From: Paragorgia papillata
Taxonomy: Eukaryota; Cnidaria; Anthozoa; Scleralcyonacea; Coralliidae
DNA length: 64,000 nucleotides
NCBI GenBank assembly: GCA_035771165.1
Contig: JAWNZC010000314.1
Coordinates: 2,281,501 to 2,345,500, forward strand
Reading direction: 5' to 3'
The position numbers were made by a program, and so were the translations under genes. Every line of letters begins with the position of its first letter. Within the stretch, counting starts at the first letter, position 1. The notes beneath the pieces are model-generated. The model worked only from the letters and a program-made list of their open reading frames with translations. It did not search any database and had not been told where the DNA came from. Positions 3,423-63,382 of the stretch are shown here, in pieces.

Positions 3423-3459
3423 TAGTCACTGACCTCAATGACAAATTTGGAGTACCAAG

Positions 3460-3819
3460 ATGACCGCTGCCACAAAACTTCCGATCATGCAATATAGGAA
3501 CCATAGTAACGTCGAAATAAAAAGTTTTGAAATGAGAGAACAACAGTCGATCATATATGCATGCACGCATGGTCTTTACATAAATTGGTTTACTCTGTGT
3601 GAACGAATATACAGAAGCAAGGAAAAGAATACGATTTTACTTGTAAACTCACTAATATATATATTTACTTTTATGGTAAATGGGTCGTTGGAAACCTTAT
3701 TGGTTTTTGAAATTTCGTATAAAAATGTACATAGTTTGCTTTTGTTATGTGTATCGCAAAGTGTTCTGTTTTTATGGACCAGTTTTCTCTTTTCTAATTT
3801 ACGATGCATGGTTTCCTGA
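3460..3819 (+). CDS. Conserved ORF of 119 codons, doubtful gene
   Basis: The open frame starts with ATG in a gatgaccgctgccac context and is intact in three copies here (also on the minus strand at 58505-58864 and 62986-63345). A hydrophobic C-terminal half (about residues 58-112) could form membrane segments. Against a gene: the differences between copies are mostly replacements, the third copy has a different C-terminus, the antisense strand is also open, and there is no recognisable domain. It may be a 5' exon or chance. Confidence 0.2.
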   Translation: MTAATKLPIMQYRNHSNVEIKSFEMREQQSIIYACTHGLYINWFTLCERIYRSKEKNTILLVNSLIYIFTFMVNGSLETLLVFEISYKNVHSLLLLCVSQSVLFLWTSFLFSNLRCMVS

Positions 3820-3983
3820 AGTTTCGTTTATTCCAATATAAGACCCATTAAGAAGTAATATACGGTATTAAAATTATTTTTTACTAACAAGGGTGTGCTT
3901 GACTTGGGACCAATATATTTAGAAACTTTCATTTCCCAAAAAATTCAGCAAAAAGTTTCCAATGCAGAGCACACACTCGATTA

Positions 3984-4257
3984 ATCCTGCCACTTGCAAG
4001 CGACCGTTAGGCGAGCGATTTTTTTCATGTTTGTTTACGTTTGAAAGTTGTATGTTTCACACGAAAACGTTGAACGTTTAAAAACAAATAAATCAACTTG
4101 CGGCGTCAGTTCAAAGAAACCTGTCAAAATGACGCTGCAAGTTGATTGATTTGTTTTTAAACGTTCAACGTTTTCTGGTGAAACGTGCAACTTTCAAACG
4201 TAAACAAACATGAAAAAAATCGCTCGCCTAACGGTCGCTTAATTGCAAATGGCAGTA
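3984..4257. mobile_element. Hairpin MITE, copy 1
   Basis: Inverted arms of about 120 bp reading cttgcaagcgaccgttaggc inward, joined by a short loop around 4100-4130. Two more copies lie at 58072-58340 and 62532-62800, where the ends are TACTGCCATTTGC / GCAAATGGCAGTA. TA-type ends suggest mobilisation by a Tc1/mariner-like transposase. No coding capacity. Confidence 0.85.
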
Positions 4258-4259
4258 TA

Positions 4260-5392
4260 GATGATTATAATCAAAATTATATTTACAGTCGGTGTTGATA
4301 AATAAGCCAAACAAAGGACAAAAAAACAGGAAATACAAGACAAAGAAAGCGCAAACTTGGTTTCGTTGGGGCGATGCTTGAATTACTTATACACTTTGAT
4401 TAGCAATTCAAGTGTTGAATTCATGCACCCAAGAAATTTAATCGAATTTAATTGAAATTTAAAATAAAATCGAATGGAAAGTAATAATTGAAACTTAAAT
4501 CAAACTCACTAATACAATACTACAATAATAATAACAGATTATACAATATGTAATTACAAAAAGAGAAAGGTTAGATTGATAAAGAGGCTATAGAGAACAG
4601 ACACGAGTCGATGTCCCAACTAGGCAAACCCCGTTGCTAATAAAACGGATACAAAATAAATAATGGTCTGCTATATTTACTACTACAATACAGAACGCGC
4701 CACTCTTCGCACCTGACGCCAAACTCAGCCCTCTTCACGAATTCATTTATCATATAATTATAAAGAATTACAAAGTTTCGGTAGGGTGCATGAAAGCTAG
4801 ACTAGCAGTATGATATTATCGAAGCTATAAGCTGCATAATTGATACCAACATAGTTATGATATATGAAAATTCAAAATGATCACATACAACAGGCCAATT
4901 ATAGATATTCAAACTTAGTCAAATATATTCACGAACAGATAATATAAGCATTTTAGTCATGCTTATGTATATATATTACAAAACCTTTAACCCTAATCAG
5001 TAAACGGGTTTTCCATCTTGCTTATATTATGCTAACCGCTAACCTGCATGCACCTACAGTATAGGCTATATAATATACGGCGGGACAGTACAACAGAGCT
5101 ATGTTACAATTTAAGTACACCCTTATTACAACAAATAAGAAAATACAATACATAAAATGATGAAAGTCAGAGCAGCAGGGTTTAGAAGAGAGTAGCAGGA
5201 AGAGCATTTGGCAAACAGATAGATTTCCAGGTTCAAAACTTATCGACGTCGTAAGCATTAATTACAGCATTAGTATAATTATAGTAATTAGAAAGTTGAG
5301 TTTTAAACTGATTAACTGAAGTAGAAACTCGTATTGAGCACGGTAGATTATTCCAAAGTAAAGATATACGGTTAAAGTACAGTAACTATAGA
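4260..5392 (-). mobile_element. 5'-truncated LINE 3' end (left arm)
   Basis: On the minus strand, 5380-5233 encodes the typical C-terminus of a non-LTR retrotransposon ORF2 (pattern LLWNNLPCSIR, then VNQFKTQLSN) ending in TGA at 5235-5233. About 0.97 kb of 3' UTR-like sequence follows towards 4260. The mirror copy starts at 56944; there an in-frame TAA replaces a Leu codon, so it is dead. Everything upstream of the last about 50 codons is missing, as expected of 5'-truncated LINE insertions. Confidence 0.65.
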
Positions 5393-6054
5393 TAGACCCC
5401 GTTCACACGAGTCCGGAGCGAGTTGAAAACGGCGCTAAAAAGTCGCAAAACGCCGTTGCGTTCACACGGCACCGGATCGAAATTGTGTGAAAACGGCGCT
5501 CTAACCGGAGCGTTTTTAAAACGATTTCTAGACGGAGCGAGATGAAAACGGAACCCGTGTGAAGATCCGGCACTTTTGCGCTCCGCTTTAGTACCCAGTT
5601 CCTAAATTTTCAGCTCCGAACCAAACGGCTGGCGTATTTTTCAGCAATGGAAATCTTTACTTCTCTTCTCGACTTCGGAAAGGTTGTGCTAAGAACTTGT
5701 GCTGCTGTTTGAACAATTATAACATTATTACAACAATGACTAGCCAAATACGAGAAGATTATTAATAGTCAATAAAGAGAGTTCCTAACAGAAAGACAAA
5801 ATTTGTAAACCTAGAATGAACTATATACACTTTGGTGGGATAATATTCTTTGAATTGCTCCTCGTTTCCATTTACTTTTGACGAAATATTGCTATTTAAA
5901 CAGTGCACAGCATTGAAATACTGGATGTACACCAGAAGGTTCTGGAGTCGTGTGAACATTATCAAAGAGTCGTTAAATTATGACGGGATTCGTGTGAACA
6001 TAACCATATGTTACCGATTATTTTCTATATGGGACTCGTGTGAACGCAGTCTTA
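5393..6054. mobile_element. MITE-like element with GTTCACACGAG ends
   Basis: Left end reads agaccccgttcacacgag and right end ctcgtgtgaacgcagtct, an imperfect terminal inverted repeat; internal phrases repeat gtgtgaacat. The right arm has only the promoter-proximal part (about 56640-56935); the 5393-5750 portion is absent there. The element ends about 200 bp upstream of the TATA box of gene A and is therefore part of its upstream region. Confidence 0.6.
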
Positions 6055-6136
6055 GAAACTATATACTACATCTAGTTCTGGACCGTTTCTAATGATTCTG
6101 ACTAAATTATTATAGTAGATTTAATCCACTATAATG

Positions 6137-6222
6137 CCAACGAACTTCCGAGGACGTGGGAGTTTGATTAAGTGTTTACCGTTGTGATCGCTCAACGGAT
6201 TTTAACGGAAAATAACGGCCTG
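6137..6222 (+). promoter_or_regulatory. Conserved upstream block of gene A
   Basis: The block runs from gccaacgaacttccgagg through gattaagtgtttaccg to gattttaacggaaaataacg. It is mirrored exactly upstream of gene B (56495-56560) and occurs in diverged form at about 59930-60035 and partly at 60720-60790. Conservation among family promoters suggests it is cis-regulatory, though inheritance by duplication alone could explain it. Confidence 0.5.
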
Positions 6223-6251
6223 ACATGCGCACTTCGAGCTTCGAGATTAAG

Positions 6252-6287
6252 CATAAAAAGAGAGAACTTTCAAACAGTTTGTCATTC
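6252..6287 (+). promoter_or_regulatory. Core promoter of gene A: TATA-like box and initiator
   Basis: cataaaaag at 6252-6260 is followed by tcattc at 6282-6287, which fits the TCA(G/T)T(C/T) initiator consensus. The A of the initiator (6284) lies 30 bp from the T of the TATA box, the canonical spacing. This gives a predicted 5' UTR of about 88 bases. The arrangement is identical in gene B at 56404-56439. Confidence 0.55.
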
Positions 6288-6371
6288 GTTGGAGAATATT
6301 CAACTAAGAAGTATCTGCGGGTCTGAAGAAATCAAGTTTGGCTCAACTGGTTGTAGTCTTGGATGCTAACG

Positions 6372-6456
6372 ATGCAATTCCTGATTGTTCTGACGCTGTT
6401 TGCAGTGCAAAGTCTTGCTAAGCCAAGTATCTACAAAGATTTTGTAGACTACGCAG
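6372..6456 (+). CDS. Gene A exon 1: signal peptide
   Basis: The ATG at 6372 opens a 28-codon exon. The peptide has a short polar start, a hydrophobic core (FLIVLTLFAV) and a good cleavage site after QSLA. It ends gcag|gtttgt, phase 1. The sequence is identical in gene B. The intron that follows is about 9.2 kb and full of repeats. Confidence 0.8.
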
Positions 6457-9400
6457 GTTTGTTATTCTTAAATTGACATATATGAGCGTTGAAGTTTAAT
6501 AAGGTTTTTTCTAAACCTTGCAATGCTTCGTGTGAATTGTCGATTACATTTTGCCTTTGTATATGTGCGCACGCCTATATCTATAATGCAGTCGGAACTT
6601 ATTGGGAAGTAAAACGTTAGGCCATGTGAATACCGTAGCTAGCACCACCCGGTTTCTTTCGTGATTAGCGCTCATCATGCACTTGCTGTTATACTTTCTG
6701 GAAATCCGTTATTTTTGGGTGGCTGTGTAGCGGCCCGCGCTTTCTAAGGAGGTGAAAGAGAGCCTGCAACTGAACACACCGTATTTTTTTTTGTCTAAAC
6801 GGTCTAATTAATTTTCCAAAATTCCGCCAATCAGAATTAATCAGACAACAGACTTTACATAAGCTATAAGAGGACTAAGACCCTGTTAATTTTAAGTCAA
6901 ATCTCGCAAGTTGTTTCCAGTTTCTTGTTGCGTTGATGAAGAAGATTGAAAGTTTTCGATATGATCGAAACGAATGGCTGAAGTCAATCCACGCAGTGGA
7001 GTGGATCGACTTGAAGGATCGACTTGAATGTCTCCAATCTCATTCATGTAAACACGGTTTGACTTGAAAATGACTTAATTGATACGCATGAGTGAAGTTG
7101 GTGCGTGTCGTGCTAACTAGGGACCTTAAGATGCTAGGACGACGACGGCGGTTAAAAAGCAATTCAAATTTTAGTATTAAAAAGAAGTCACGGTTAACTC
7201 ACTACCGTATTCATTACTTGAAGCTTGTTTTATAATTTTCAAAGTTTTAAAACGGTTGCAGTGTCTGTGTTAAGGCAATCTCAGACAACAGTTCTCATCA
7301 CCCCACGAGTCAACGTCGTCCTGAAGACGTGAAAATGCTCTGAGTGGCGTTGTATACAGAGCGAGGACGCTGTTCAGATTACACTTGGGACTAGAAATTA
7401 TTCATCATCTTTGTTTTGCAAGAAGAATGCTTTTGTTTGAAGGATGTCGTCCTCGAAGTTGCCGTCGTAGATCTTAAGGTCCCTAATGACGGACATTGAG
7501 GGAAACACAGAAAATAGTGTTCCAAAACCAAAACCAATCTTCCAAGCAGATCGGATTCTCCATGTAAACATGTGCCCGGATTGACTTCACTCGCGTTTTT
7601 CGATTTGATTGGACTGAATCCGCTTCATAGGGCTTCATGCGTCGATTCTGTTTTATGTGTCGCGGTTATTATATATGTTACCTTGCATAATAAATAACCT
7701 ATACTATGTTGCTCTACAACTACGTCTAGAATACTATATTTTTTTGTTAAATAACGACGGATATAATCTGTATCAGGAATGAACTCCTTTCATTCGCGTG
7801 GAACAACTTTATCTTTTTACTCTGTCTAACGCCAGACGATTTCACTTGTCAAAGGAAACGTCTCAGAAAACCATACATGAAACGTTAAAGTCTAGGCAAC
7901 TAACCTATACTTAAAAGAATCCTTAGAAGATTTAATAACTATAATACTGCATGTAAAGTTTGTAGTTTGGCACGCTTTACCTATTGATCATGCAACCTAT
8001 TCAAATTACCCCGCGAGCAGAGCCTTCTTTTCCTTATTTCTTCGCTGAGAGAGAGGAAGAAAAGTAGGCTCTGCTGTATTCGTGACTGGTTTCCATTGCG
8101 CATGCATGTCAGTTGCTTGGTTACAATCTCGAACCCAGTCCCAATCAGAGCAGAAAACAAAACGAGAACCGTTAAATGGGTCTTAAACGGGTTACTTCGT
8201 CCTAAATCTTGGACGAAGCCAAACACGAATACAGCAGAGCCTACTTTTCTTCCTCTCTCTCAGCGAAGAAATAAGGAAAAGAAGGCTCTGCTCGCAAGGT
8301 AATTCAAATTATCTCAAAGAGGAATCATTCATTGCAGACTTGTGGTTTTGGGTTTTTTTTTACTTAAAGAATCCTTGGAGAATTTAATAACTATATAATA
8401 CTGTAAAGTTTGAAAAAAAATGTAGTTTAGCACGCTTTACCTCGATCAAAACTTATTCAAAACATCTCAGAGAGGAGTAATTCAATTCAGACTTGTACTT
8501 TCTGAATCTCATACCATCGATGCTTCCTCGGCCCTAAAAGATATTTGAATCATCCTTAGAATTTGTTTACATCTATAAACTAATAAACCAATTATTCTTG
8601 GTAAATTTAGTTTATGCGAGTTTTAGAACCACAGTATAAACACTTCAGTAATGGCGATTAATTTGAATATTCTCTTATGTGCATCTTAATAAGGGGGTAT
8701 TTATACGGAGGAGCGCCACCACTTGGTAGGGCTGACCCTCTTTGCCGGGATCCCGCATCTCAACGTAATTCCTTGTAATTGTTTGCGTTCACATGATAAG
8801 TGGGCGAGCCCTCCTATAGGCGAGATCTGGCTATTGACAACCCGAGATCTCGCCTAGGAGGGCTGGAATTTCCCATGTAAACGCACTTAATTAAGAGAGA
8901 TGGCCTTCTTAGGAGGCCTAGCAAATCGAAGCTCAGTATTCGCGATAAAATTTGCCTTTTTTTGCTTCTGACCAATTTTTGATGATCAACTTTTTATTTT
9001 ACAAGTTGCGTTTGTTCATATGTTTGTTATAAATTCAAATCGTGTTTGCGAAAATATGATTTCGAGCTTCGTGGGAAAGCTGCACAGGTCGGCAAACAAG
9101 CCAACGCGAGGTGAAATCCAGACCTCTTTCTCGAGCTAGCCCTATTAAACAGGAAGCCTAATCACTATAATTACTGACCCAACGACGTGCTATTCTCAAG
9201 TGTACACGCATTTCCATTGACAAACTTATCCAGTACAATCCATATATTGCACTCAGTTCATCAATTTATAGGCAATTTCGAATACAGAACATTATTTTTG
9301 AATGTTCTGGAAGCTTACACTCTCACAAGAGTTGGCTTATAAATAAGAAAGAGTGTGAGACCGATCTAAACGAGTGTGAGATGTATAACTAATATTTTTT

Positions 9401-12400
9401 GGTCAACTTTTTATTTTGCAAGTTGTGTTTGTTCACGTGCCAGTTTGTTATAAATTCAAATCGTGTTTGTGTAAACATGATTTCGGGTTTCGTGAGAAAA
9501 CTGCACAAGTCGGTAAACAAGCCAACGCGAGTTAAAATATAGCCCTACCAAAAAGTCTCCTGTGAACACGAGATAAAATCCACCCTTCTTACTATATAGG
9601 GCTAGCCCTACCAAGAGGGCTGGCCCTAGCTCCTCCATATAAACACCCTCTTAGTGTTTCTCGCCTCGTGATTCAAAGGAATCTTTGCTTCGCACATAAT
9701 GAGGCCATATTTTAAGTTGGTGGCTTTTATGAAAGTGGTCTATGATCAAGTTAAGCGTACCAACTCGCCTCATGTAATTGGACCTTGACTTAATGAGAGT
9801 ATTGTTTTGTGGTCAAGTTATATAATTATTTCAATTCTATCATGTTCTCATTCCTTGTACTTTAGAATTCTATTCTCTAGAATTCGAGCATGGTATATTC
9901 TGAATTGTATCAAATAACCTTTAAACCACTAATTAACGAACTGTTTACATGCATATATATGATATAGCATCTCAAACAAATCAGTATTTTGAGAGAAAAT
10001 CAAGATGAAGGTTTGCTTAATTTATGTAATTTCTTCCTTGGTATCCAAACCACCGGACACGGTACCGATTTCCTTTGTGTTTTCTTCATGAATTATTAAT
10101 GAGTTATATATATATATATATATATATAAGCAAGTCATTTCAGGCAGGCCAGAAGGAAAGCATAAAATATTTTTCTTCTGCTCTTTGTTCTTTTATTGTT
10201 TTTGCTCTATTCTCTCGTTTGTTCTTTAGTTCTTCGTGTTCGATATATCGGACACTAAAGGCTGATTTCCAGTCAGTGGAATTTTGCGAGCGGGCGGAAT
10301 TTTTCTTTGTCTTGTGAGCTCTCGAGCGGAACTAATCTAATTCGGAGCACGAAAGACAAAGAAAAATTCCGCCCGCCCGCAAAATTCCACTGACTGGAAA
10401 TCAGCCTTAAGGGGCTGTTCACATGAGGCGGCCTGGCCTGGTTACCGGGCTGATTTTATGAATTTATGTCATGAAAATATTTCTTTGACTTCAAAAAGGA
10501 ATTATAATACTCCGTGTGCTATACCTACAGAAAAACAAACCCACTTTTGCTTTATGTGATTTTGCATTTCCCAAATAGTCGTAATAAAATTTTCGTGACA
10601 TAAAATCAGCCCGCCCACCTCATATGAACGACCCCTGAACGTCAAAGGGTTATAGACATAGTGCAGAGTACGTCATTTTCCGCCGTTGACGTCATTTTCA
10701 GCGTTTTGATTTTTGAATTCTATTGAAAACATACAAAAGCTAAGACAATAAACGAAATTGAAAAGAAACTGACCTCATAGGGTAAAAATTACTTTTCTAT
10801 AGTCTATACTTATTACTAGAAGTTACTATAATCGCAAGTGAAGTGCTTCCTCAAATGGGACGAAAACCTTTAGCATACTCTGCAGGCAACTTTGTGCAGT
10901 TTGTGGCCAACGTAACATCCTCCAATTGCCCACTGCAGCTGAGTTTGCCCACTCCACCCAAGTTTGCCCACTCCACCCGAGTTTGCCCAATCCACCAGAG
11001 TTTGCCCAATCTACCCAATCCCCCCCAACCTGAGTATGCCCACTCCACCCAGGTTTGCCCACACCACCCGACTTTGCCCAATCCACCAGTTTTCCCAACC
11101 TACCAAAGTTCCCCACCGCCCACTCCACCCAAGTTTGCCCACTACAGCTGAATTTGCCCACTCCACCCAAGTTTGTACACTCCACACGAGTTTGCCCAAT
11201 CCACCAGAGTTTGCCCAATCTACCCAAGTTTCCCCCCCGACCTGAGTAATGAGTATGCCCACTCCATCCAAGTTTGCCCATACCACCCGACTTTGCCCAA
11301 TCCACTAGAGTTTCCCCAACCTACCAGAGTTCCCCCACCACCACCTGAGTATACCCATTCCACCCAAGTTTGCCCACTCCACCCGAGTTTGCCCACTACC
11401 CCGAGTTTTCCCACTCCACCCGAGTTTTACAACTCCACCAGAGTTTGCCCAATCTACCAGAGTTTTCTCCCGCCTGGCCCAGTATGCCCACTCCACCTGA
11501 GTTTACCAGACTCCACCCGAGTTTGCCCACTGCACCCGAGTTTGCCCACACCACCCAAGTTTGCCCACTCTACCCAAGTTTTTTTCACCTCTCCCAATAA
11601 GAGCCAACAACGTTGCCTGTGCAGGAGGCTGGACAGTCCAAATATTATTATTTATGAGACGACATAATGTTGATGCCTAGAACAATAGTCGGTAAATGGC
11701 TCAGCAAGAGAAATCCGTCACGCGTAATGATATCATTCTCAAAAGCATTTATGTACATATTGTTTCCTTGCAAATAAAACACACTGTCAACTGCTGATAC
11801 TGTCGTCGAGTTCCACTATAAACTCATGAAAGAGCACTGCTTTCCTCAAGAGTCAAGACTGGCCAAGATAGAAGAACACAACCGTAAAATCTCTTACCAA
11901 AATATCGAATTTTTAAACAAGATAAATCTTTCTACTCACTAAAATCAAGGTTTATCTGCAGCTCAACAATACATAGCTCGGCCAAGAGATCTGGGCACAA
12001 GACACAGCTAACCCAAGTCAAGATTAGTGTGCTGCCTCCCTTCGATCGGCAGCAAAAAGGGTCTATATATTTTTATGTCACGAAAATCTTTCTTGCAAAA
12101 AATAATTATAGAATATCCTGTTTGCTGTGCTGTGAGAAAAACGAAGCCAATTTTGCTTTGTTATGTCATTCTGTGTTTCTCAAGCGAGTTTCTGTTTAGT
12201 TATTCTTTGTTTGCACTTGACGTCATAGAGGCCATGTTGGAGGAACTTTAACAAACGAATCTCATTATAATTAGCATGCAGCTATTGCATGTATTTGTTA
12301 ACCGGGCTGGCCCGTGTCACGAAATTCTTTCCTCGGCCACAAAAAAAGATTTTAATCAACGTTAGGGTTAGTTTACATCTAAACTAAACCAATTCTTCTT

Positions 12401-15400
12401 TGTACATTTAGTTTACGCGAGTTTCAAATCCACAGTGAGATCCTAATCAATCCCTTACAAGGCGAGCTGCAGGCGAGCCGTAGTAAATCAGATGCAGATC
12501 GGCTGCGAATGCTTTATCGTATACTTATCCTGAACGGACGCATCTAAATAGCCATCGTTTCAAACTATTTTTCAAGTTGGAATGATTTTAGCTAAGTAAA
12601 TTGAGGGAAAAACTTATGTAAATCAGAACGAATCTGTATGCGATTTACAGAATCTGAATTTGAATTTTCTTCATGAATTTTTAACGAATTTGATATAACG
12701 TTACGTCATAAATACTCTAGTTTCTGAGGCTAAGGATTTGTGGCTAGAGCATCCTTTTCAGATAAAATGTTATGTTGGTTACGTTATTAGTTATACTATA
12801 TATGTGCAAGTTTCAGTTTTACAGTTCTTCAAAATAACTATGAATACTTATTTTCATTTAGCGTTCGATTATATGAATGGTCATAACCGTGAACCAAGGG
12901 AAGTAGAACCAGGTAAAAAATGCCGCGTAACATACGCACAAAAGCAATTTCTACTGATTATATCTAAATCAGTCATAATTATATATATTTTTAATTCTTT
13001 TTATTTTTTGCCGTTTCTTAAGGTCTTAGTTAAGGCCGGTTTGCAGACTTATTTCGGTAAAGCGCTCTCAATTCGTCAGAATTTATGCTACAAAAATAAA
13101 ATAGATATCGTTAGAAAGCTATTGATTTGTAGAATACAATGGTGTATTTGATTTTCCGATAGACACAAACCAATAATAGTTCTGGATTTTTAAATTAAAA
13201 CAAGAGGGCTTCACTCGGGGCGACTCATGTGAAAAGCGTTTTATTTTGTTCAATATTTTTTGGAGTTTAATTCCGAGATAAATTTCCAGAAAAACGGTGT
13301 CAGCGTTTTGGTTTTTTTCAAGTAAAAACAAGTAAAATTTTTCAAGTAAAACCAGAGGGCTTCACTTGGGGCGGACTTACAGTAAGAACAAAGCGTTTCA
13401 TTTTGTTCAAAAAATTTTTTCGCGGTTCTATTCCGAGATAAATTTCCAGCAAAACGGTGCCAGCGTGTTGTTTTTTTATTTATTGTCTGGTTTCGATTTT
13501 ATGACTTATTTTGTCCGAATGTTGGTCGAAAAACAGCATTTTCAACTTTGGTCGTCAATAAAATCAGTAAAACTCGACATATCAAAAAACGCTGACACCG
13601 TTTTGCTGGAAATTTATCTTGGAATTAAACTGCAAAAAATATTGAACAAAATAAAACGTTTTTTACTTAAGTCGCCCCGAGTGAAGCCCTATGGTTTTTA
13701 TGGTGTTTATCGCAAAATCAAAGACAATATTGTATTCTACAAATTAATAGCTTTCTAACGATATCTATTTTATTTTCGTGTCATATATTCTGACGAATTG
13801 AGAGCGCTTTACCGAAATGACTCTGCAAACCTTAACGAAGACCTTAACCCCCATATGTGTACTTAAGCAGTTTGCTGACTGTACGAGCTACACAATAATG
13901 CTAAAATAAAGAGATTTTGAGTGCTACGCCAAAAAGAAATTGTTTGAACACGAGCAAATTTTGCGTTGATTTATATTATATTGCATCGTTCAAATATGGC
14001 GGATTCAACATTTTAATTCGTGGCTTCATAATTATGATTTTTCTATTTCTTATACTATGTTTTTCAACTCCCAAATGTTCTGCATAAAAAGTTTGTTGAT
14101 TCTATAAGCTACACAATAATGCTAAATTGAGGAGGTTTGGAGTGGTACGCTACAAAGTTCTAAGGTTTTTGAGCGCTTTTCACCGAAAGTATGTGACATG
14201 AAAACAATTTCCTTCTTAAATTTAATAAAAAACATGCAGGCTCTAAGAAATCGCTAAAATCTTGCCGAAAATAATTAAAGAACTGTTAAAAAAGGTTTTG
14301 AGTTTCAATGACCCCGTGAAATCGGACCACTGTTTAATGTAGGTCTTTACTGCTCTGGAGACGGTTCGAATTCACGGACCGAAAGCTAAGAACAATTAAA
14401 AATTAAAAACATGGTGCAAACCCACAAACTATGAATTTGAATTTAATTGACATGCAAATCATTGAAATAAGCTTCAAAGAAACAATTATAAACTTTTTAC
14501 ATTTTTTGTCACTCAAATTAAGAATACTTTTTTTTAAATTAAAAGCTCACTCACACTCACACTCACCATAGTCAATCGAGATATGGTCTGGAAACTCAGC
14601 TAAAGTATTTGGTCTATCTTTTTGTTTGCCTTTATGCATTTTTGTGCACGGTGTACGGTCACTGAACACATTATATTTTAGTATAATGAACGAATTGTCC
14701 AATAGCAACTTTTCAGTTCAACCACTCAACCGTGCTATTTAAATATTAATAAACCTAAAACAAAGGATGTGCACGATGTAAAGGCCTGTCCAAACGCTTT
14801 CAACATCGCATTCAACATCATTCAACATTGGGATTTGTTGAACGATGTTAAATAATGTTGAAAGCACGAGTGGCCAAATTAATTCAACATCGTTCAACAT
14901 TCATGAATGACAATTAATTGATGCGGGCTACCACAAAAGCTGGAATCGACAATATCCCGCATGGCGCATGTCTCTGTTCAACAAAGTTGAATGAAATGTG
15001 GCCAAATGCGTTCAACACCTTTCAACATTTTGAGAACAATAGAAATGTTGAACGCGTGTTGAACGAAAATTTGAACATGTTCAAATTTCGTTCAACATCA
15101 TTCAACACCATTCAACAACGTTCAACATCATTCAACAGGGGTGGCCAAACGCTTTCGACATGTTGAATTCAACAATGTTGAACGATGTTGAATGAAATGT
15201 TGAAAGCGTTTGGCCAGGCCTTAAGGTACGGTTCAACATAAAATCACAGCTCATTATAGGCGCTATGAAGTTTGCCGAGTTTCCAGACCATATCTCGATT
15301 GACTATGCACTAACACTCAATGAGTCTCCACTCACCCTCACTGAGTATGAGACTACACTCACTCTCCAACCATTCAATTCAATGTTTAGAGTGAGTGTAG

Positions 15401-18400
15401 TCTCATACTCAAGGAGGGTACGTATTTGCTCAGTAAATTCATTGGCGTAGTAATTTTGAAAAACTACCTTGTCTAATTCAAGAAAATGAAAAAAGTTAAA
15501 GTTTATGTAAAAATAGAGGATTTTTTTATCAGATATAAAACCACGGACATGGTACTGATTCACTTTGTATTTTCCTCATGAATCATTACAAAGTTTTTGA
15601 AAATATTTTTAGAGTGTAAAATTGATCTCTTGATAATTTGGGACAATTCAAAATCTATTGGCAAAAGCGCTTTTGACAACCAAGTAAAAACCTTCTTCAG
15701 GAGTCTCATCAACAACGAGGATTTAAATGTTGGTCCGGAAGGAACACATATAGGCATAATCACCTTTAGTACCCAAAACAAAACTAAAGTGTTGCTGAAA
15801 TTTGGAGAGAAAACAACAAAAGCTGACTTACTGAAGTATATTAAAGGATTGACGTGGGAAGAGTTAGAAGGCGACGCAACAAGAACTGGGATGTCTTTAA
15901 TGCTAGCCAATCAGGTATCTTTTTCTATAGGTAGTTTTGTGAAATATTGTTTTTGTAATTAATGGTTTTTGAAAAGTAAATTAACATTTGCAATTAAGGT
16001 GCTTGGAAAAAGAAATGTTTTGAAAAGCAAACTAATGAGATAAAAGTACACTCTTGTGTGTAATTAGGCTAGATGAATTGATATAAACCAAATTAATTAC
16101 ATATAAATAAGTTTTGTGGAAACACCACGTAAAATATTTCTTTGCTAAGCTTTCGGCCTGTTGACTCTTGACAGAAGGACAGCCATTAAACAGCACGTGG
16201 TGTGCCCTATTCGGAGAACATTCTTGATTTTGTTTTCTAATTAATTAAATTAACGTGATACGCCATTGTATTCTCACGTGATTTAATTGATCAGTTGCTT
16301 AGTTTATAAATGACGTGAGCCAACAACTTGTTGTCATTGCTCTGATGAGGGCCTGAGTCAACAGGCCGAAAGCTTAGCAAAGAAATATTTTACGTGGTGT
16401 TACCACAAAACTTATTTATATTACATTATCGCCATGAAAACTTTCAAAGAATTAAATTAATTACACTTTCAAAGTTGCTACCTTAAATCTGTCTGCCATC
16501 TTCGATACATTTTTTTATGTGAATGTGACGTCACAGCTACGTCGACCCTAGACTGAAAGCCAGCTGTCCTACTGACGTAATAAATTCGTAGTAGCCGCTT
16601 ATTTCAGTACGAGATTTTCCTTGAAACTCGTACTCATTCTCGTTCCCAGATCCCCTACTTTTCTTAGCACGGCCACACGAAAATTCTTGAGGTTCAGGAG
16701 ACATGGATATTGCGTAATGCGTGATTGGTTGATTAAATTACCGACCGGAAGTAACATTGTGACATTGAAGCTCATGTAGAGATCACAAAATTTATTTATT
16801 TATTTATTATGCTTTGCCACTAACGGTATATATGAGAAATATTCACACCTACAATTAAATTATTAATAAATATTCATACCTACAACCTAAATTATTACTG
16901 AGGATGGATGAAAACAACATAAACAATTCTTCAACACTCTGTCTTCAACCAAACCGGTTATCAGCTGCAAAAATGCTAACAAATATCTTATCATGAAAAA
17001 TCATCCTGTGTTGATATTTGAAATTAAAGTTACTGTGAAATTGCGAAAAATCATCAAATTTTTACATAGCAGTACGATCAGACCTGACAATGTTTTCCCA
17101 AAGAAAATATGCCAGCCATGCTACAGCCTACAGGGCTTTACAAAAAATGGTAGAATCTCACTGAATGTGCCAGGAAACAACAATAGCTGCACAAGTGATA
17201 TTAGTATATGTTGGTTTTCACAAAGCGTTGCGGGTTTTGACGACTTGACAACTTCGCGTGTCAACCTGGCATCTGTTTTGATAGGACCTCGTCGGGATGC
17301 GAAAACAACGTTTCCGTCTATGTATTGTTTATTCAAGGACGAACAGGAACAAAGCTTTACCCAATTCCGACCAATTTTGCCTCGTATGCCACCTTCTAAA
17401 ACGAGATGTCTTTTAATATAATTTTTGAACACGAACGAGGACGAACAGCCCGACAAACCTTTGGCCTCAATGAAGAGAAATGGAGAACCTGCCGTCCGTA
17501 ACCTCTAAACAAGAACAACTCCATAAAACTTTATTCTATATGGAATATGTTTGTTGGTTTGTTTATGGTTATATAAACAAATTTTTCTTTGCTTCTGACA
17601 CGTCCAGGTTGACAAATATGTTGACGACAACAGTGGAAAAGACAATTTATTTTTCAGCCGAAAACCATTTAAAACAAGCAAATAGCCAACACAAAACTCG
17701 AACTATTTTTATTACATGAAACATTTATTGAAATATACAACTTGAAAGATTAAAGATAGCGAGAATAAACAAAACAGGGTTTTCAAAATTTCACTCGTCA
17801 GTTCATGGACCTACAGCTCGACGAGCATCATACAATACCGTTTTATACATAAGTTTGAACATGGTCTTGGCATCTTGCAGCTTTTACACTCCTTCCCAAA
17901 AAACTATGTTACAAAAGCGTCCATTTCGCACGATAATGTTTATGTTTTAGGCACAAGGCGATGAAAAATCAATAAAACTAATCAAATTACTTCCACAAAA
18001 AGTCAAAAACTGTTTTGACATATCCAAGCGTGCAAAGGGACAAGGTATAGATAACTTTGACTTTGCAAACACCGCGGATGTCCTAAAATCTAGGACATCC
18101 GGAATCCATGTCTCCAGAGCCCCAAGAATTTTCCTGCGGCCGCGCTAAGAAAAGTAGGGGATCTGGGAACGAGAATGACTCGTGCTAAGATAAAACGCTA
18201 CTACAAGTTCATCACGTCAGTACGAGATAGCGCGTACAATGGCGAATCTCGTACGGTAGTCGCAATCAAATCTAAAGCTCCCTATATTGCCTCAACGGTC
18301 ACGTCGACCTTATTTGAAATACATCTCTATACCCACTGCGCGTTAGTATAAAAGCCAGGAGGCTCAGCCACATCAATTTTCAATTTTATGTTTAACTTTT

Positions 18401-21400
18401 CATTTTTAAAGGTGCTGTCCAGTTCGTGCAGCGCATGTACGAAACTAATGTTTACTTCTTTATTTACAAAAAATATACTGATACCTTATTCAAGATTGTA
18501 AGCTTTTCTTGCTTTCTCTTCATTACTTGTACCCGAAAACTAAACATTTTTATAAGAAATCCGAAGAGATATCCTCGTTGAATCGCTTAATTTTCTGCCA
18601 TGTTGCTTCGAACGGTTTACATTTAGCTGAGTACTTCATGTAATTATCTACGAATGTTATGTTTTGAGGTGCTCAAAACAAAGATGGCGGATCATGCGCA
18701 GAACGCGCTGGATATGATATCACCTTTAACTTTCAACATTTTATTTTTACGTTTTCACTTTCTATTTTTGCGTTTCAACTACTCATTTTTAACTTTATAT
18801 TTTCAAATTTTAACTTTTTATTTTAAACTTTTATTAACTCTCTATTTTTAACTTTTAACCTTTTGCTTTCAACTTTTTACTTTCTAATTTTTAACTTTAA
18901 ACTTTTTATTTTGTCATATTTTTATAAAATTGAAAAGTTGAAACGTAAAAATGAAAAGTTGAAACGCAAAAATTAAAAAGTTAAAACGTAAAAATAAAAT
19001 TATAAAAGTTAAAAATAAAATGTTAGTATAGGAAATAACACGGTTCGAGAAGAATTAATGAAAAATCGCACGCGTGTTTGGCGAAATTTTAATAATACTT
19101 CGCCAAACGAATATTTCGCCAAACTAACCTTTACTTAACTTTCTTCGTGACTAACTTCTTGAACGCTCGGCAAAAGCAAGTAAACCAGGACTCGTGTCTG
19201 ACTTGTTTACTGTCAGCAATTGTTTCCATCTGTCAAACTGACATGATCTCATTTTAGGTCGTATCAAACGTTGCGGTATCAAGTCAGTTTGGCAGGTGGA
19301 AACAAGTATTTACTGCAAACACCCGGATGTATGGTATTTAAAAAATACCACATGTGGTATTTTTTTAAATACCCCTAGTAAAACAATTTAAATTCAATAC
19401 AGATGTCATTAGCCAATCAGGAATAAGTAAAATTGATTGGAATGTTATTAAAAGTTAAAAATAGAAAGTGAAAAGGTGAAAATATGTTAAAACATAAAAA
19501 AGAAAAGTTGATGAAATCTCCTGGGCTTCTATACGTAAATAGATACTAATCAGAAACATCAGAGTTTTCTAAAACTTTTTGAAATTGTTTTTCTTGTTAT
19601 AGATTTTTGATCAAAAGAATCCTTTGAACGGGGGTGAGGGGAGAAGGAACGTGGAAGACGTGGTGATGATTGTCACTGACGGCGAACCAATGAGAGCTAA
19701 AGGCGACACAACGTACGGCTATTATGATTACGATAAACCCGAAAAATTTGCCAGAGGACGACACCCGCAGGGAGAAACAAAAATGGCCAACGCTTACTCA
19801 GCGAAACTGCACAAAAAGGAAATTCGGGTTGTTGGTGTTTACATTGGTAGCAACGGCGACCCAGGTTTGCTGAAAAAGTGGACAACTACACCGTTGGACA
19901 CGATCCACACAAAAAAAAGTGAATTTGACAAGGTTGCTTCGACAATGGTAGGCAAATCGTGCAACAAAACAGGTGAGAATAAATTACTGACACTAATTCA
20001 TAAATTATAGTTAATGCAAAAAACATGGTTTGAAAGCTCGACAAAAGTCATATTGTTTTATGTTTCTGTTCAGGTTTATGGAAATTTGTGCACTTTCACG
20101 GTTACTGAACATATTGGTTTCTGCATGTATAAAAAATAAATCATCCAATCGCGGCGTTTGGGTTCACCTACTCAATCGTACTGTTCAAATATTGATAAAG
20201 CTAAAACAAAAGATTTGTGCACCTTCAGGTACCTTTCAACACTGAATCGTTGTTCGATTGTTAACCGCTTTGAAGTTTTCTGGGTTTCCAAACCATGTTT
20301 ATTTTCTATATATATTACATACAAGAAAGACAAAACTGTTCCATGAATGTAAAACAAAAAAAAACCTGTCACAATGAAAACTCAAAACAGCCATATATAC
20401 AATTATTATCACGCGCGCATACAGTATAGCAATAAAAGTTGATTGATCCAAGGGCTTGTTTATATCGTCCCAATAAGCGGTCACTCCGGCGGTCACTCCG
20501 TTGCGTTCATATAAGAAACTGGGTTCGCGCACGCTTGCCGAGATCTCAGTAAGCGGGATGAAATTTTCCCCGTATGTATGAACACTTAATTCGTCCCAGT
20601 TATACCGGATGAAGTCTCTGGCAAGGACAAAAAGTTGGGTTTTTCTTCGATGAGATTTAAGGATAGTTGAAGATTTTATTCTTTATTAGAATATAAATCA
20701 CAATTGTATAAAAGGATTGATTTTGAAGCAAACAAACCTGTGCAGCAGTATGTCTTGTCACCGATTATCGGACAAGCTATTTTTTTTTAAACGGGTAAAT
20801 CGTTAGTATTATTTGAGTGGATAATTCGCCCATATCGCTTTACAAAATTAGAAACATGAGCGTAATTATACACGCAAACACATACATACACATACGCACA
20901 TTTATACAACACACATACATATACACATATATACATATATACATATATAGAGGTCTATATGAAACCATAATAGGTTTTTAAAGACCCGCAAGTCTTACAA
21001 TTAAACATATATACATATATAGAGGTCTATAGGAAACTTTAATAGGTTTTTTTAAGACCCGCAAGTCTTACAATTAAACAGTAACTATATATAAAGTGCA
21101 TGACTATCATATATATGTTACAGAGAAATTTGGTTAATAAAATTAGGAAGATTGATTTCATTTATGACTTCTCCGCGTTAGTCGAGATAAAAACTACCAT
21201 ATAAACGGCACAAGACAGACTTAGTTTCGCTTACCGGGACAATATATGAACTGGTCCAAACTTGAAACAAATTGACCCAAAATACAAAGTTTATACCTAC
21301 TACGACATAAATGTCTAACGAAAATATTTATTTTTATCCCCAGACTGTAAGAAAAACCCTACGAATGCAGAATGCATCAGACAAGGTAAGAAACTCAGCC

Positions 21401-24400
21401 AACTTGGTGTTTCTCAGTGATCTTGTTGGTATGGGTTAATTGATGATCACGAGAGTGATATGGGATTTAACATCGTGAGTGAAGCTTAACAGCCACGAGA
21501 GGCCGCAAACCATTTTACCTCATGACTCTCTCGCAGTGAAATCATTTTGTTTTTTATTTAACTTACCGAGAAAGAAACAAGAGTTAGAAAGGAAGATACT
21601 CATTAGCATGCGAGAAGCAGTCAAAACAATGAGATAACTAGTTATCCAAGTGGGATAATTAACATTTATACCATGAGCTCGAGTTGTATACGAGCTCATA
21701 GCCAACGAGGCGCTTCGCCGAGTTGGCTATTAGTTCGTATACAACGAGAGCGAATGGTATAACTGTAGTGTTTTATTATATAGCCAAGCACTGTACAAGA
21801 GACAAAATTACAGCGAAATGTTTGAAACAACAAACGTCCGGCATAGGCAACTAATACTTCCGCCATGCGTAATGATGCATTCACATAGAGTTTTTCGCTG
21901 AGCTGTTCGGTAAACAGCTTCGAAATGTTGTATACATGTAAATGTTGCTCGAGAGGCAAAAAATGTGTTAAGCAGATCAACAAAAAAGATTAAAAGGTAC
22001 CTTTATGAAGTCAAAAGGTGGGCCAGTTGTTTATATTAGCGTTGCATGGTGTCGTGAAAAAGGGTTTGATTTCATGCAAAAATGAAACTGAAACACCTTC
22101 GGCAGTGAAACTAAATTACTTAGTTGGTTGTTTTTGAAAAAGAGCATGCTTTTTACTACTCCAAATGCTTTTCTAAATCAAAAAAGTCTCTTTACTGGTG
22201 ATCTCCAACGAAATGTGTGTTGTAAGCTTGATTTTAACCGTGAGTTTCTTCGTTTCGCAACAAATTAATATCCACCCGTTAATTTAGTCGGGTTTTTTGA
22301 AGTAAAAAGACGTAATTTTTAGATGAATTTTACCATTTAACATGCTAAATTGTGTATTTGTTAATGTATTTTTACACAATGTTGTTTTTTTATACATTGG
22401 TTTGAGGGTGTTGATGTTAAACTGTATAAAAATCCGTCAATTTCAACTCTTTTCGGCAGTTTAAAAAAGACATGCCGCCATCTTGTTTTTTCTCTACCAG
22501 CAGGATATGAGCTGATAGCCTGGTAGTAGGGAACCAATCAGATTACGCAAAAGCTCATATCCGATAGCATGCTGTATAATAAGTATAGTTATCCCACTAT
22601 GCATACTCATCTGCATGCTATATAATCAGTAATGAGTAACTGACTCAGCAATCGATGATTGCCATGGTGCAGATCGGTCAAAAAGCCCAAAATCAACGCG
22701 ACAGCCAATCAGGTTTGAGGCAAATCGGTCAAAAAAGTGGTTGCCATGGTGCAGATCGGTCAAATTGGTCAAACACCAATCAGATCTCTCCGCAAACCGG
22801 TCAAAACTCTCAAAGCGAACGCTGACCACCGGTCATCCCTGCCCGTTGTTTGCTGACTCGCAAATTACAATAAAAGCGAATTTGAAACCTAATCAGTCTG
22901 CCAAGCTTTGGCAGTCACGGCATAACATTTTCTAGAAGACTGTTGAGATTAAAATATTGCGTGATCGCGCAATTATTCTGGTGATATTTTACGTCAGTCG
23001 CGTGACCGGTCTGATGTATGATAAATCCGCCCCTGAGACGATTTTATTCAGCACAGGGAGAGGTCCAGGCCTCAAAGTGTTAAGCTTTAGAAGTGATGTC
23101 TAATTGCATCTGATGTACAACCTGAAAACTCTGGCAAAAACTACACTTTATACGACCTAATTGGCGTCTGCGAGGTACACAAATATGGCGGCCAAAAAAC
23201 GAATGCTCATATAAAGTGTAGTTTCAACCAGAATCTGTAGATTGTACATCAGATATGATTAGACATCTCTTCTAAAGCTCAACCAAGCATTGTATGGTCA
23301 ACTGTGTGTACAAAGTGGCTTTTAACGACATTTGAAAATTATGCTGACGTCAGCAATAATATAATTCAAAACTCTGTAACTCGAGAAGGAATGGTTGTAT
23401 CAACTTAAAATTTTTCAGGAAAACTCGTAATAACCATCTACAAAATATATAAAACAACCAACTTTGTAGATTTAATAATAAACATTTTAGAATTTTGTGA
23501 CGTCACAGTGAAAACCACCTATTGCCAGGGCCATTTTTAAAAGGTATTGGCAATAAAAATTAAGTCGTTTATCATTTGAAAGAACTCGTCAAATGGTATA
23601 AGAAGACCTTTTACAATTTTTCCGTATCTGTTTTGGTTTTGGAAATATTTCGACCAAAGACAGCGTGCTGTCCGCCATCTTGGAATTATTTTCGATATGC
23701 AAAATTAAAGTGAAATTTTTAATAAGCAGGGTAAAGTGAAATTTTTATCTTACCGACCTTATGACATTATGAGCTAGAAACTCGATTTTGTTGCACTATT
23801 TCCATTTTAAATTGACCCACAACATTTAAAAAGCCTTCTGTGGAAATTTGGTCACCCACGGAGTAGTTTCATCAGGTTTACCCTGCTTGTGACGTCACCA
23901 ATTTCATAGTTAATTAGACCCAATATTACAACAAGATGGCCGACAGCACGCTGTCTTTAGTTGAAATATTTCAAAACACAAGAAAGATACAAAAAATTAC
24001 AAAAGGTCTTCTTATACCATTTGACGAGTTCTTTCAAATGGGTCAAATTTAATTTTTATTGCCAATACCCTTTAAGAATTGTTTCGTGGGGGGAGGGGGC
24101 ATTGACTAAAAGGGACTGTCCTAGAGGGGTCTGGGGCATGTCCCCTGAAAAAAGTCTCGAAAATGCTATTTCATACATTCTGAAGGCTGATTTTTAGGAA
24201 CATAAAAACCAGTTAAAGTACAACACATCTCTGACTATACTTTGCTGTCAGAACTCATCAGCGTATTAATGCTGTTGTTACAGTACTGCCTGGTGACTTA
24301 GGATTGTTTCATGAAAATAATGATTAGGTACATTAATTTTAGTGAAAGAGCAGTTAATTTCATCGATAGAAATACTGGACACTTATTTAAGCATTTTAAT

Positions 24401-27400
24401 TTCAAATGTTTCCAACAAAAAAGGCGGTGGGTTAATTATATAGTTATTCCTTCTTCAAAGCTGGCAATAGAAGTGTTCTTATAATATCGTTGCAATTCGT
24501 TTGCTCGTCTTGGCCAATCCATTTCATGAATTCCTGTTTTGAATTTCATTGGTTTTTCATTCTTGACATGCAGACAAGAAAAGGGAGTCATCGCTCGGAG
24601 CAGCCAATAGGAATCACGAAATTCAAAACAGGAACTTAAGCAGCTTTTCCACTAGGCGATTTTTTTCGCGCGAAGCGACTTTCTTTTGTTCGAATTCAAT
24701 AGATTTCTGATTAGTTACAGCTCAGAGCTCACGAGACAAAAGAAAAAGTCGCCTAGTGGAAAACCGGCTTAAGGTGGTGATTACATGGAGACTTTCAGCC
24801 CGGTTTAGGAGGGCTTAGTTTTTATTGCGATTACATGAGCGATTTCAAACCGGGCTGAAACCAAAATTTGAATCAATAACTCGTAGGAACTCGAAGAATC
24901 TTTGTTTTGCGGCTGCGTAATGAACGATCGACACTGTTCACACGCTTAGTTCAGCCCGGGTTGAAAATTTTGAGCGATTACATGGGCGATTTCAGCCCAG
25001 TTGACCGGTCTGAAAATTCCATCCCGGGTAACGCGAACCGGGCTGAACTTTCAACCTGGGCTAAACTTTCAGCCAGGGTTGAAATTTTTCCATATATGTA
25101 TTCGCTATGTTCGTATTACAAATATTTAATAAGAAGACCGGGCCCGGGCTGAAAATCTCCATGTACTCGGCCCCTTAATTGTCCAACGAGTTTCAAAAAA
25201 ACTTGTCAGACAGAGCAAATGAATTGCAACAAGATTTTAGGAACACTTCTAATTAAATATGAATCAGGAAAATAGGAAATCAGTAAAATAATTTATCGAG
25301 ATAAAGACATTAAAGTGTCAATGAAGCGATTTTAGCAGTTTTGAACAGATATAAGCATGACATGTGCAGAGCTACACACACTCAAAGTTTGCCATGGCTT
25401 AATTATTCATTTTTGAAAACAATTATCGCTCGGTCAGAGCGCTTGATGGCGTACATGCAGTTGGATAACGATGCACAACGATAATATATTTTAATATTTA
25501 TAATCCAACGGCATACGTCAATCCTATATGTAGATTCAATCCCAGTCTTCCTTATATTTTGTAACATCAGAAAGGCAACTTTAGCACATATAATATCTCG
25601 AAAAGTATACATGCCACATTTCTTTCATTTTTTCGATATTGGCTATTTAGATTATGACCTTCAAATTTGTTCTATTGGAAATTTTCACTTCATGGTCACT
25701 TTAATACTTTGAAAGTTAGCGTCGCAATATTATAAAGTTTTGCCGGTAGTCAAGTCTAGTTCCACGTCTTGAATTTGTTGTAGTGCGTATTAATTTTTAA
25801 TAGCAATATTCTAGCTTATAGTATACTGAACACGCTATAACAAAAAATTATAATAGAAATTGCTTTTTAAAATTAACTAAAAAATATGCTCAGTAGAACT
25901 CGAACACTTGCATTTCTAGAACTCAAGATTTTTATTGTCTAGATTTCTTTGCCTGATGACTACTTCACGGTAGTAACTTATACCTACTTTTTAGGCAAGT
26001 GCGAGTGTTCTGCTATCGCATCATCAGATATGTACCTTGAGCATGGCAAAGACACCGTGAAGTTCATCTGGAAAAAGCCAGAAATCCGTTGTGAACCCAA
26101 TAATAAACCGCCAAAAAATGTAAAGGAAGTGGTAACGCCTGAAGGCACAGAATCTCCCAAGAACTTTAAAGCTGGTTCCCATCCTATTACTTATAAATTC
26201 ATATACCAGAATGGTAATAAGCAGCTAGCTACACTGGAATGTCCCGTAAAACTCAAGGTCGAAAGTAAGTATATACTGAATATTAATATACAATAAAAAC
26301 TCACCTGCAAGAATTAACCTTCAATTTTCTCAAGTCAGTCTGAAAAGGTTATTTTTTCAAGATTTTATTTCATGTTGTATAAGTTCAATTATATGAGTCC
26401 CAGTAGCTTAATAGTTCGAGTGTTTCACTGGCAATCAGAAGGCCCTTGTAGGTTGTACTTATATTCAATCTACGTTCAACCATCTGAGCCCCAGTAGCTC
26501 AATGGTTAGAGTGTTTCAGTGTCTCACTGGTGACCAAAAGGTTGTGGGTTGTACACACATTCAACCTACATTATAATCATCTGTCTTCTAGTATGGTTAG
26601 AGTGGCTCTGCAGTGTCTCACTGGCAATCAGAAAGTTGTGGGTTTGATTCCCAGTTCAAAAACTCGTTAATAATTCATGAGGAAAACACAAAGGAAAATC
26701 ATGACCGTGACGCGTCTCTATATATGTGATAGAGACACGCTCGCTATTTTCGATGAACTTTTTCTCCGATTTTACGGCTCAGATAACTTCAATTTTCAAA
26801 ATTGATTTCTATATGAGCTTATCATAGGGGTAGTTTTTGAAGCCATTTAAAACATTCGCAGTACGTGTTTTATCAGATCTAAAACACTCGGCTATCGCCT
26901 TAAATCTGATAAAACACTGCTGCTCATGTTTTAAATAGTACTTGGAAACTCAGTAAATATTTCGAGCGTGCATCTTGTTTTCTTATATACTATATCTATT
27001 ATTTAAGAGTGCAGCTGTCCAAGTCGAGACCTAGGTGTACAGTACGCTAAACCCGGAGAAAAAGCCTACGTTGATTGGAAAGTACCAAAAGCAAGTTGCA
27101 CAGGTGGTACAGTCGATCTTATTGAGAAAACTGGCATAACCACTAGTGGATATTATAATGTTGGTCCCCAAACAGAATTGTACGTCTACGGTTTGGCTAA
27201 AAACATCCAGAAGACCGTGGCCAAGTGCAGTGTCAAATTTGAAGTGAAAGGTTGGTAATATATCTAGAAAGATGGAACGCATCATGGGCGATCGTGCTCG
27301 AGCGAGCGACTCTCTATGCCATCCCAATGTGTCCACCATTACAATTCAGTATTATCTTGAATAGCGAAGCGGACAGTTACTATTTATAGACCAAAACTCA

Positions 27401-35549: not shown

Positions 35550-35743
35550 TCAACCTTTTTGGCAGGCATTTGGACATTCTTCGGTGTCCGAAACGACGTT
35601 ACCATACTCAGAACAACATTTGTGATCTGCCTTGTTGAAATAATTCATTCCGCAACACTCCCATTGACTTTGCTTGGTGTGCCGTTGTCCTTCACAGCAT
35701 ACTTCTTTGTCAGGATTGTAGTTTTTCCAACTGCATGGAATAA
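35550..35743 (-). CDS. Gene B exon 7: galaxin-like C-terminus
   Basis: The acceptor (minus strand) is tatctgttttcttag; the stop TGA is at 35552-35550. Galaxin pattern: YNPDKEVCCEG, WECCGMNYFN, HKCCS and ECPNAC. About 13 residues shorter than in gene A, mostly at the tail. A plus-strand open frame over the same bases is a shadow. Confidence 0.75.
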
Positions 35744-58864: not shown

Positions 58865-58901
58865 CTTGGTACTCCAAATTTGTCATTGAGGTCAGTGACC
58901 C

Positions 58902-63345: not shown

Positions 63346-63382
63346 CTTGGTACTCCAAATTTGTCATTGAGGTCAGTGACCC

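Follow-up and report, generated by a model that had tools for sequence, protein, structure and literature searches.

The VWA exons of an octocoral gene array whose members exchange sequence are probably under diversifying selection, with the selected residues over-represented around the MIDAS and the metal-binding residues fixed. As far as DNA sequence can establish them, the array itself, a chimeric gene, an excess of replacement changes, a constant MIDAS and an overlap of the selected sites with the equivalents of integrin contact positions are all demonstrated.

Architecture of genes A and B

Two members of the array, gene A on the forward strand and gene B on the reverse strand, face each other in the window (the whole 64,000-nucleotide stretch analysed). 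In each gene exons 2 and 3 together encode the VWA domain; next come a linker exon of 14 residues, exons of HYR type and a repeat resembling galaxin. The segments referred to below are:

3425..21661 (no strand), block of about 18 kb that A has in common with B, where it is inverted (58899-40792); the pieces are 87-98% identical
15613..15914 (+), gene A exon 2, N-terminal VWA half with MIDAS DxSxS and T, group II type
16503..17102 (no strand), switch region of the A chimera; diagnostic sites 65/66 group II upstream, 59/59 group I downstream
19603..19972 (+), gene A exon 3, C-terminal VWA half, group I type; open frame, AG/GT borders, 370 bases, recognised by Pfam as VWA when joined to exon 2
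21344..21385 (+), gene A exon 4, short linker DCKKNPTNAECIRQ
25995..26264 (+), HYR1 exon of gene A, of type I, serving as the control exon; HYR 20.5 bits, below the Pfam cut-off of 21.7
27008..27250 (+), gene A second HYR-like exon, from position and Cys pattern, without Pfam match
29100..29345 (+), gene A third HYR-like exon; weak HYR match, E 0.035, below cut-off
29628..29860 (+), last gene A exon found, galaxin-like repeat and stop; Galaxin_repeat E 1.4e-7
35550..35801 (-), ORF with gene B galaxin-like exon (ORF limits); Galaxin_repeat 26.9 bits, below the cut-off of 28
36665..37051 (-), ORF containing a HYR-like exon of gene B (coordinates are those of the ORF, the exon borders being unfixed); its DNA matches A 29079-29357 at 68%
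39563..39823 (-), gene B HYR1 exon, type II, 38% identical to that of A; HYR 25.8 bits
41072..41113 (-), gene B exon 4, by eye
42742..43114 (-), gene B exon 3, group II type, 373 bases
47153..47454 (-), gene B exon 2, converted to window coordinates from 2660-2961 of copy L019

The Pfam match of gene A (PF00092, E 1.1e-20) and the DxSxS..T..D metal motif identify a MIDAS-type VWA domain. Some HYR and galaxin modules score slightly below the Pfam cut-offs: the VWA-HYR-galaxin order is seen in gene A with VWA and galaxin above the cut-off and HYR1 just under it, and in gene B with HYR1 above and galaxin just under. The exons after the VWA domain being HYR- or galaxin-like, neither gene encodes an integrin alpha subunit. 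A motif search revealed no signal-peptide exon or exon 1 within the window. No Ig family appears among the Pfam matches (E <=0.1) of seven peptides (five from A and two from B; exon 1 unseen), nor in the precomputed Pfam annotation of the five full-length relatives found (P0001-P0005; best match P0001).

Within the inverted duplication (3425-21661 / 40792-63380), two matches to A 3425-4776 lie on the B side, one near 58899 and one near 63380, so the B side holds an extra local copy. By eye, the stretches on either side of about 0.9 kb of A (21662-22585) adjoin each other in B near 40790, and the common block seems to extend to about 22630 in A. ORFs at 31039-31524 resemble what is presumably the tail of a retroelement reverse transcriptase.

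A gene array with two groups of copies

The genome (617.86 Mb, 473 contigs) contains at least 15 matches to exon 3 by DNA and at least 15 by protein (E <=0.001). All exon-3 copies found sit on one 10-Mb contig (C314), between 1.66 and 3.13 Mb, and exon 2 gives 16 match rows within the same array. The frame of exon 3 is open in 13 of 15 copies; the broken copies are L013 (stop), L015 (frameshift) and L010 (2-base indel in exon 2). Introns beside exon 3 can be aligned in twelve copies. Group I comprises L009 (gene A), L010, L011 and L012, and group II comprises L013 to L020, with L019 being gene B. The HYR1 exon likewise comes in two types, with identities of 38-41% between them. A HYR1 exon 93-100% identical to that of B occurs in six gene copies of group II and in one orphan, and L016 and L017 give no HYR1 match at the expected position.

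Several irregularities were observed along the array. HYR1 exons of both types lie at C314:1974856, 2087625 and 2514356 (L037, L038, L029) without an exon-3 copy at the expected position, the one at 2087625 carrying a TGA; these orphans are perhaps partial genes. At L025 (C314:1665850-1666500) an exon-2 copy is closely followed by a second, partial exon-2-like stretch, either a duplicated exon or a remnant. In L015, small insertions occur several times, both within exon 2 and in its flanking introns, as in a decayed copy or low-quality sequence. L018 and L019, 280 kb apart, show no difference in exon 3 or in the 369 flanking bases compared and align differently to A farther upstream; their identity reflects recent conversion or an assembly effect.

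Gene A as a chimera

At sites diagnostic of groups I and II, gene A is in the group II state up to about 16.8 kb (65 of 66 sites) and in the group I state at all 59 sites beyond, group I being mostly represented by one copy only in the upstream bins. By these sites, gene A is a chimera in which a group-II exon 2 is joined to a group-I exon 3, with the switch near 16.8 kb. This is why A and B are alike in exon 2 (3 mismatches in 341 bases) and unlike in exon 3. With HYR1 types only 38% alike, the two are not a young pair of simple duplicates. The distinctness of these types suggests that the groups are probably old and that the likeness of their 5′ blocks probably reflects recent exchange. The 5′ block (about 18 kb with the VWA exons) was probably exchanged between two older gene types, which would explain why the introns stay alike. 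L012 and L017 show mixed states within exon 3; mosaic patches inside the exon are not claimed, a PHI-like test being not significant (p = 0.17).

Replacement changes in exon 3

The earlier note had counted about 35 replaced codons, four silent ones and one inserted codon between exon 3 of A (19603-19972) and of B (43114-42742), and our counts match, at exactly 35, four and one. The silent pairs (A/B) are GTG/GTA, GAA/GAG, TCA/TCG and TCG/TCT, and the extra codon, GAT, is in B. The low divergence reported for the flanking introns was likewise recovered, at 4-5% (8/155 upstream and 8/193 downstream, within 200 alignment columns). In the sliding-window check suggested at the time (150-base windows over 9.4 kb), both windows inside exon 3 differ at 13.3% of positions and the others at 0-8%, the 8% window overlapping the start of exon 3; an outlier of 31% (20997-21146) lies on a 224-column gap and is probably misaligned. 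Divergence climbs from about 1% upstream (30/3301) to 3-4% beside exon 3. Low flanks, a peak over the exon and signs of exchange are thus found together, as in a peak of divergence.

By the NG86 method, exon 3 of A and B differs at 41.5 of 288 replacement sites and 6.5 of 81 silent sites (dN 0.160, dS 0.085), a whole-exon dN/dS of 1.9. Replacements exceed the intron differences (one-sided Fisher p = 1.1e-5; p = 0.005 without codons changed at 2-3 bases). Compared with the silent sites of the exon itself, the excess gives a Fisher p of 0.06, which makes the whole-exon test on A and B alone too weak to serve as proof of selection.

A wider sample was provided by the other copies. Replacements lie above introns in four of eight copy pairs tested, the other four being close pairs with p of 0.16 or more. 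Over the copies, the ratio of replacement to intron divergence (pN/pI) is 3.34 (95% range 2.06-6.03), silent divergence is itself 2.14-fold that of introns (1.02-4.33), and bootstrap pN/pS is 1.57, with a 95% range (0.95-2.92) that reaches 1. Inside group I, pS (.044) equals pN (.043) and both are above introns (.007); the corresponding values inside group II are.035,.065 and.020.

Codon models were fitted with our own numpy code, with naive posteriors, not with a published package. Twelve of the 15 exon-3 copies were used, leaving out L013 (stop), L015 (frameshift) and L019 (identical to L018) and keeping L010 despite its broken exon 2. Under M0, omega is 1.57 and omega = 1 is rejected (2d 4.45). 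Site models allowing a selected class are strongly favoured (2d 46.9 for M1a/M2a and 46.7 for M8a/M8), M2a placing codons 3, 24, 28, 49, 55, 56, 84, 89 and 107 in that class. Codons 1-88 alone give 2d 35.9 and codons 89-124 alone 16.6; a run on eight core copies without L010 gives 2d 35.4 and an M0 omega of 2.14. Null simulations lacking positive selection, half of them run with a recombination point, never exceeded 2d 5.7 (46 of 60 planned completed, using a faster fit that kept relative branch lengths). For groups I and II as a core, omega is 2.03, with omega = 1 rejected (2d 6.51), compared with 1.10 in the outgroup part of the tree; neither the stem of group I (omega 3.6, 2d 2.98) nor its clade (omega 1.75, 2d 2.06) is significantly above 1. 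A class of exon-3 codons with omega above 1 is favoured by the multi-copy site models; the A/B ratio of 1.9 has p 0.06.

Exon 2 and the HYR1 control exon

The HYR1 control exon evolves at the intron rate: type II has pS.0185, pN.0256 and flanks.0208 (seven copies, one an orphan), and type I has pS.036, pN.037 and flanks.044 (six copies, two of them orphans, one of which has a stop). Within both types (L026-L038) pN is close to pS, which suggests weak constraint on the HYR module. Together with the site models and the intron comparison, this control supports the proposal of diversifying selection in exon 3.

The proposal that fast change is restricted to exon 3 fails. The restriction stems from the choice of A and B, the exon 2 of A being nearly that of group II; other copies behave similarly in exon 2. 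L009 and L012 differ there at N 26/238, S 3/62 and introns 8/400, and L011 and L012 at N 19.5/237, S 0.5/63 and introns 15/398 (the 0.5 silent change was rounded down to 0 in the Fisher test). These contrasts rule out selection confined to exon 3. Codon models of exon 2 are modest in support: M2a gives 2d 10.3 with 10 copies and 8.5 with 11, M0 omega (1.10-1.21) did not test as above 1, and the M2a class takes up 39-44% of sites, so the selected sites of exon 2 are poorly resolved. Of the 15 copies, these models left out the two broken ones, L010 and L015, as well as L018, which does not differ from L009, and that of L021; the copy of L014 entered the 11-copy model only, and L013 was kept despite its exon-3 stop.

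Position of the selected residues

The MIDAS Asp (TDG) is unchanged between A and B, as the earlier note stated; the core strands, held there to be unchanged too, are nearly so, codon 24 (V/L) being the sole replacement in exon-3 codons 19-27 and 74-82, a rough stand-in for strands b4 and b5. The metal residues (D10, S12, S14 and T89 of exon 2, D26 of exon 3) have selection posteriors of at most 0.19 and are constant in open-frame copies.

The integrin alpha2 I domain with a collagen peptide (1dzi) gave a weak sequence match (E 8.7e-5) covering only query residues 3-129. A table in PMC4237329 lists the alpha2-I residues within 4.2 A of the peptide, contacts of N154, Q215, D219 and E256 are described in PMC3726769, and D219 is stated in PMC4237329 to largely determine collagen preference in these integrins. 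N154, N189, Q215, D219 and E256 align with exon-2 codons 13, 55, 83 and 87 and exon-3 codon 28, respectively, the equivalence of N189, which adjoins an alignment gap, being the least certain. All five codons are in the selected class (posteriors 0.88-1.00). With the contacts tabulated in PMC4237329, 5 of 11 non-MIDAS contact equivalents are selected, against 24 of 208 other codons (p = 0.008; p 0.03-0.06, depending on threshold, against the aligned part only).

Loop order was taken from a structure prediction for P0002, made from three sequences, whose low confidence (mean pLDDT 60) restricted it to that use. On this order, beta-to-alpha loops hold seven of the nine exon-3 codons in the selected class (p = 0.02); the full set of 35 A/B replacements shows no loop enrichment (17/35, p 0.17).

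Alternative explanations

Part of the pattern could come from an island of older divergence, in which conversion homogenised the 5′ block of two old types and selection merely retained an old difference in exon 3, as in the model known from human opsin exon 5 (PMC3924837). The low likeness of HYR exons between types, the excess of silent over intron divergence in exon 3 and the climb in divergence towards that exon are all in its favour. However, the silent distance between groups I and II (.084) is slightly less than that between II and outgroup (.10-.16), a small margin, and well less than that between I and outgroup (.17-.22), while their replacement distance (.13) exceeds that between II and outgroup (.09-.12; three copies against three outgroup copies). 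In addition, the presence of several amino acids at codons 28, 84 and 89 suggests repeated change. We therefore hold this an unlikely account of the whole, the process probably contributing but not acting alone. A related objection had been raised beforehand, that exon 3 of one copy might have been converted from another paralogue. The exon 3 of A does lie in a tract of the other subgroup; the tract, however, includes introns only 4-5% different, so distant origin alone fails to explain the excess.

Two further alternatives appear very improbable. Relaxation of constraint as a tandem family decays would accord with the broken copies L013, L015 and L010 and with the near equality of pN and pS in HYR1, but not with omega above 1 in the core copies, constant MIDAS residues and an open exon 3 in 13 of 15 copies. 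An origin in the mutation process, through biased gene conversion, CpG decay or changes of several bases at once, draws some credit from the codons changed at 2-3 bases, whose removal weakens the contrast with introns to p = 0.005 for A/B and to 0.13 for L014/L018, from the GC content of the exon (.46, against.29 in the flanks) and from the changes private to core copies, of which 11 run from A/T to G/C and 6 the other way. Yet such an effect would be expected to act on silent and replacement sites alike; 9 of the 48 differences between A and B involve a CpG, and the group-I branch has three changes in either direction.

Proposed mechanism and function

The encoded protein would most likely be secreted, since the relatives P0001-P0003 start with a signal-peptide-like stretch (by eye). 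HYR and galaxin modules may anchor or multimerise it, and the VWA face would grip an acidic group of the ligand via the metal ion, so that altered rim residues would alter the ligand. Exchange would reshuffle VWA halves between genes, and selection would both drive replacements and shield them from erasure by conversion. The silent excess of exon 3, the pN/pS range reaching 1, the equality of pS and pN in group I, the non-significant stem and clade of that group and the results for copy pairs fit this combination of selection and conversion, which has been described for opsins (PMC3924837).

We infer that the copies make up a recognition repertoire, diversified in the germline, whose VWA face would bind variable ligands. 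By our weighting, a role in microbe defence or in telling self from non-self is likelier than one in building the skeleton, and gamete recognition is a possible driver; a purely structural, skeletal matrix role of these predicted proteins agrees least with a variable face. Tentatively, one may imagine a metal-dependent repertoire in the germline, where selection re-tools the MIDAS rim and conversion swaps VWA halves, yielding combinatorial specificities for microbes or self/non-self. Diversified recognition families of invertebrates are mostly known from other scaffolds (Ig, fibrinogen, LRR). The scaffold here is an integrin-like metal-binding domain with coordinating residues frozen and contact rim variable, a combination that makes candidate specificity residues readable from sequence.

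Comparison with known systems

The named relatives, Dendronephthya gigantea LOC114527012 (P0002) and LOC114534632 (P0003) and Paramuricea clavata P0005, are all octocoral and uncharacterised. Like A and B, P0001-P0005 have a VWA domain with MIDAS motif followed by HYR; the galaxin repeat is identified by Pfam in P0001 and P0003 and by eye in the others, and identity to the gene A model is 32-33% for P0001-P0003. VWA and galaxin proteins occur in octocoral skeletons according to PMC11959691 and PMC7853314, which keeps a matrix role conceivable; nothing there was seen to connect them with the present genes. The open PMC literature yielded no paper combining galaxin, von Willebrand and HYR domain, and the array was undescribed among the matches listed for open PMC titles on octocoral genomes or duplication, allorecognition, and VWA selection or conversion.

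The integrin alpha2 I domain shares with A and B the VWA fold and the D-x-S-x-S / T / D MIDAS, and its contact positions overlap the sites selected here, but A and B are not integrins. Cnidarian allorecognition of the Hydractinia Alr type uses Ig-like ectodomains, whereas no Ig family is among the Pfam matches of the peptides scanned. Plasmodium TRAP is an adhesion protein with a VWA domain. Its gene is reported to be under balancing selection (PMC9319867, PMC4204863); TRAP is a single polymorphic gene of a parasite, however, and the coral genes are paralogues of an animal.

Accelerated exons have been described in snake-venom genes (PMC2711939), which like the array show fast coding-exon change in a multigene family, although the proteins differ. 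Islands of divergence are reported for copepod GOT1 paralogues (PMC3728101). Exon 5 of the human red and green opsins, presented in PMC3924837 as a peak of divergence kept by selection under gene conversion, resembles exon 3 in being diverged between paralogues amid converted introns. The opsins involve two genes and few functional sites; the coral has an array and many selected codons, one animal in which paralogue exchange and diversifying selection visibly oppose each other.
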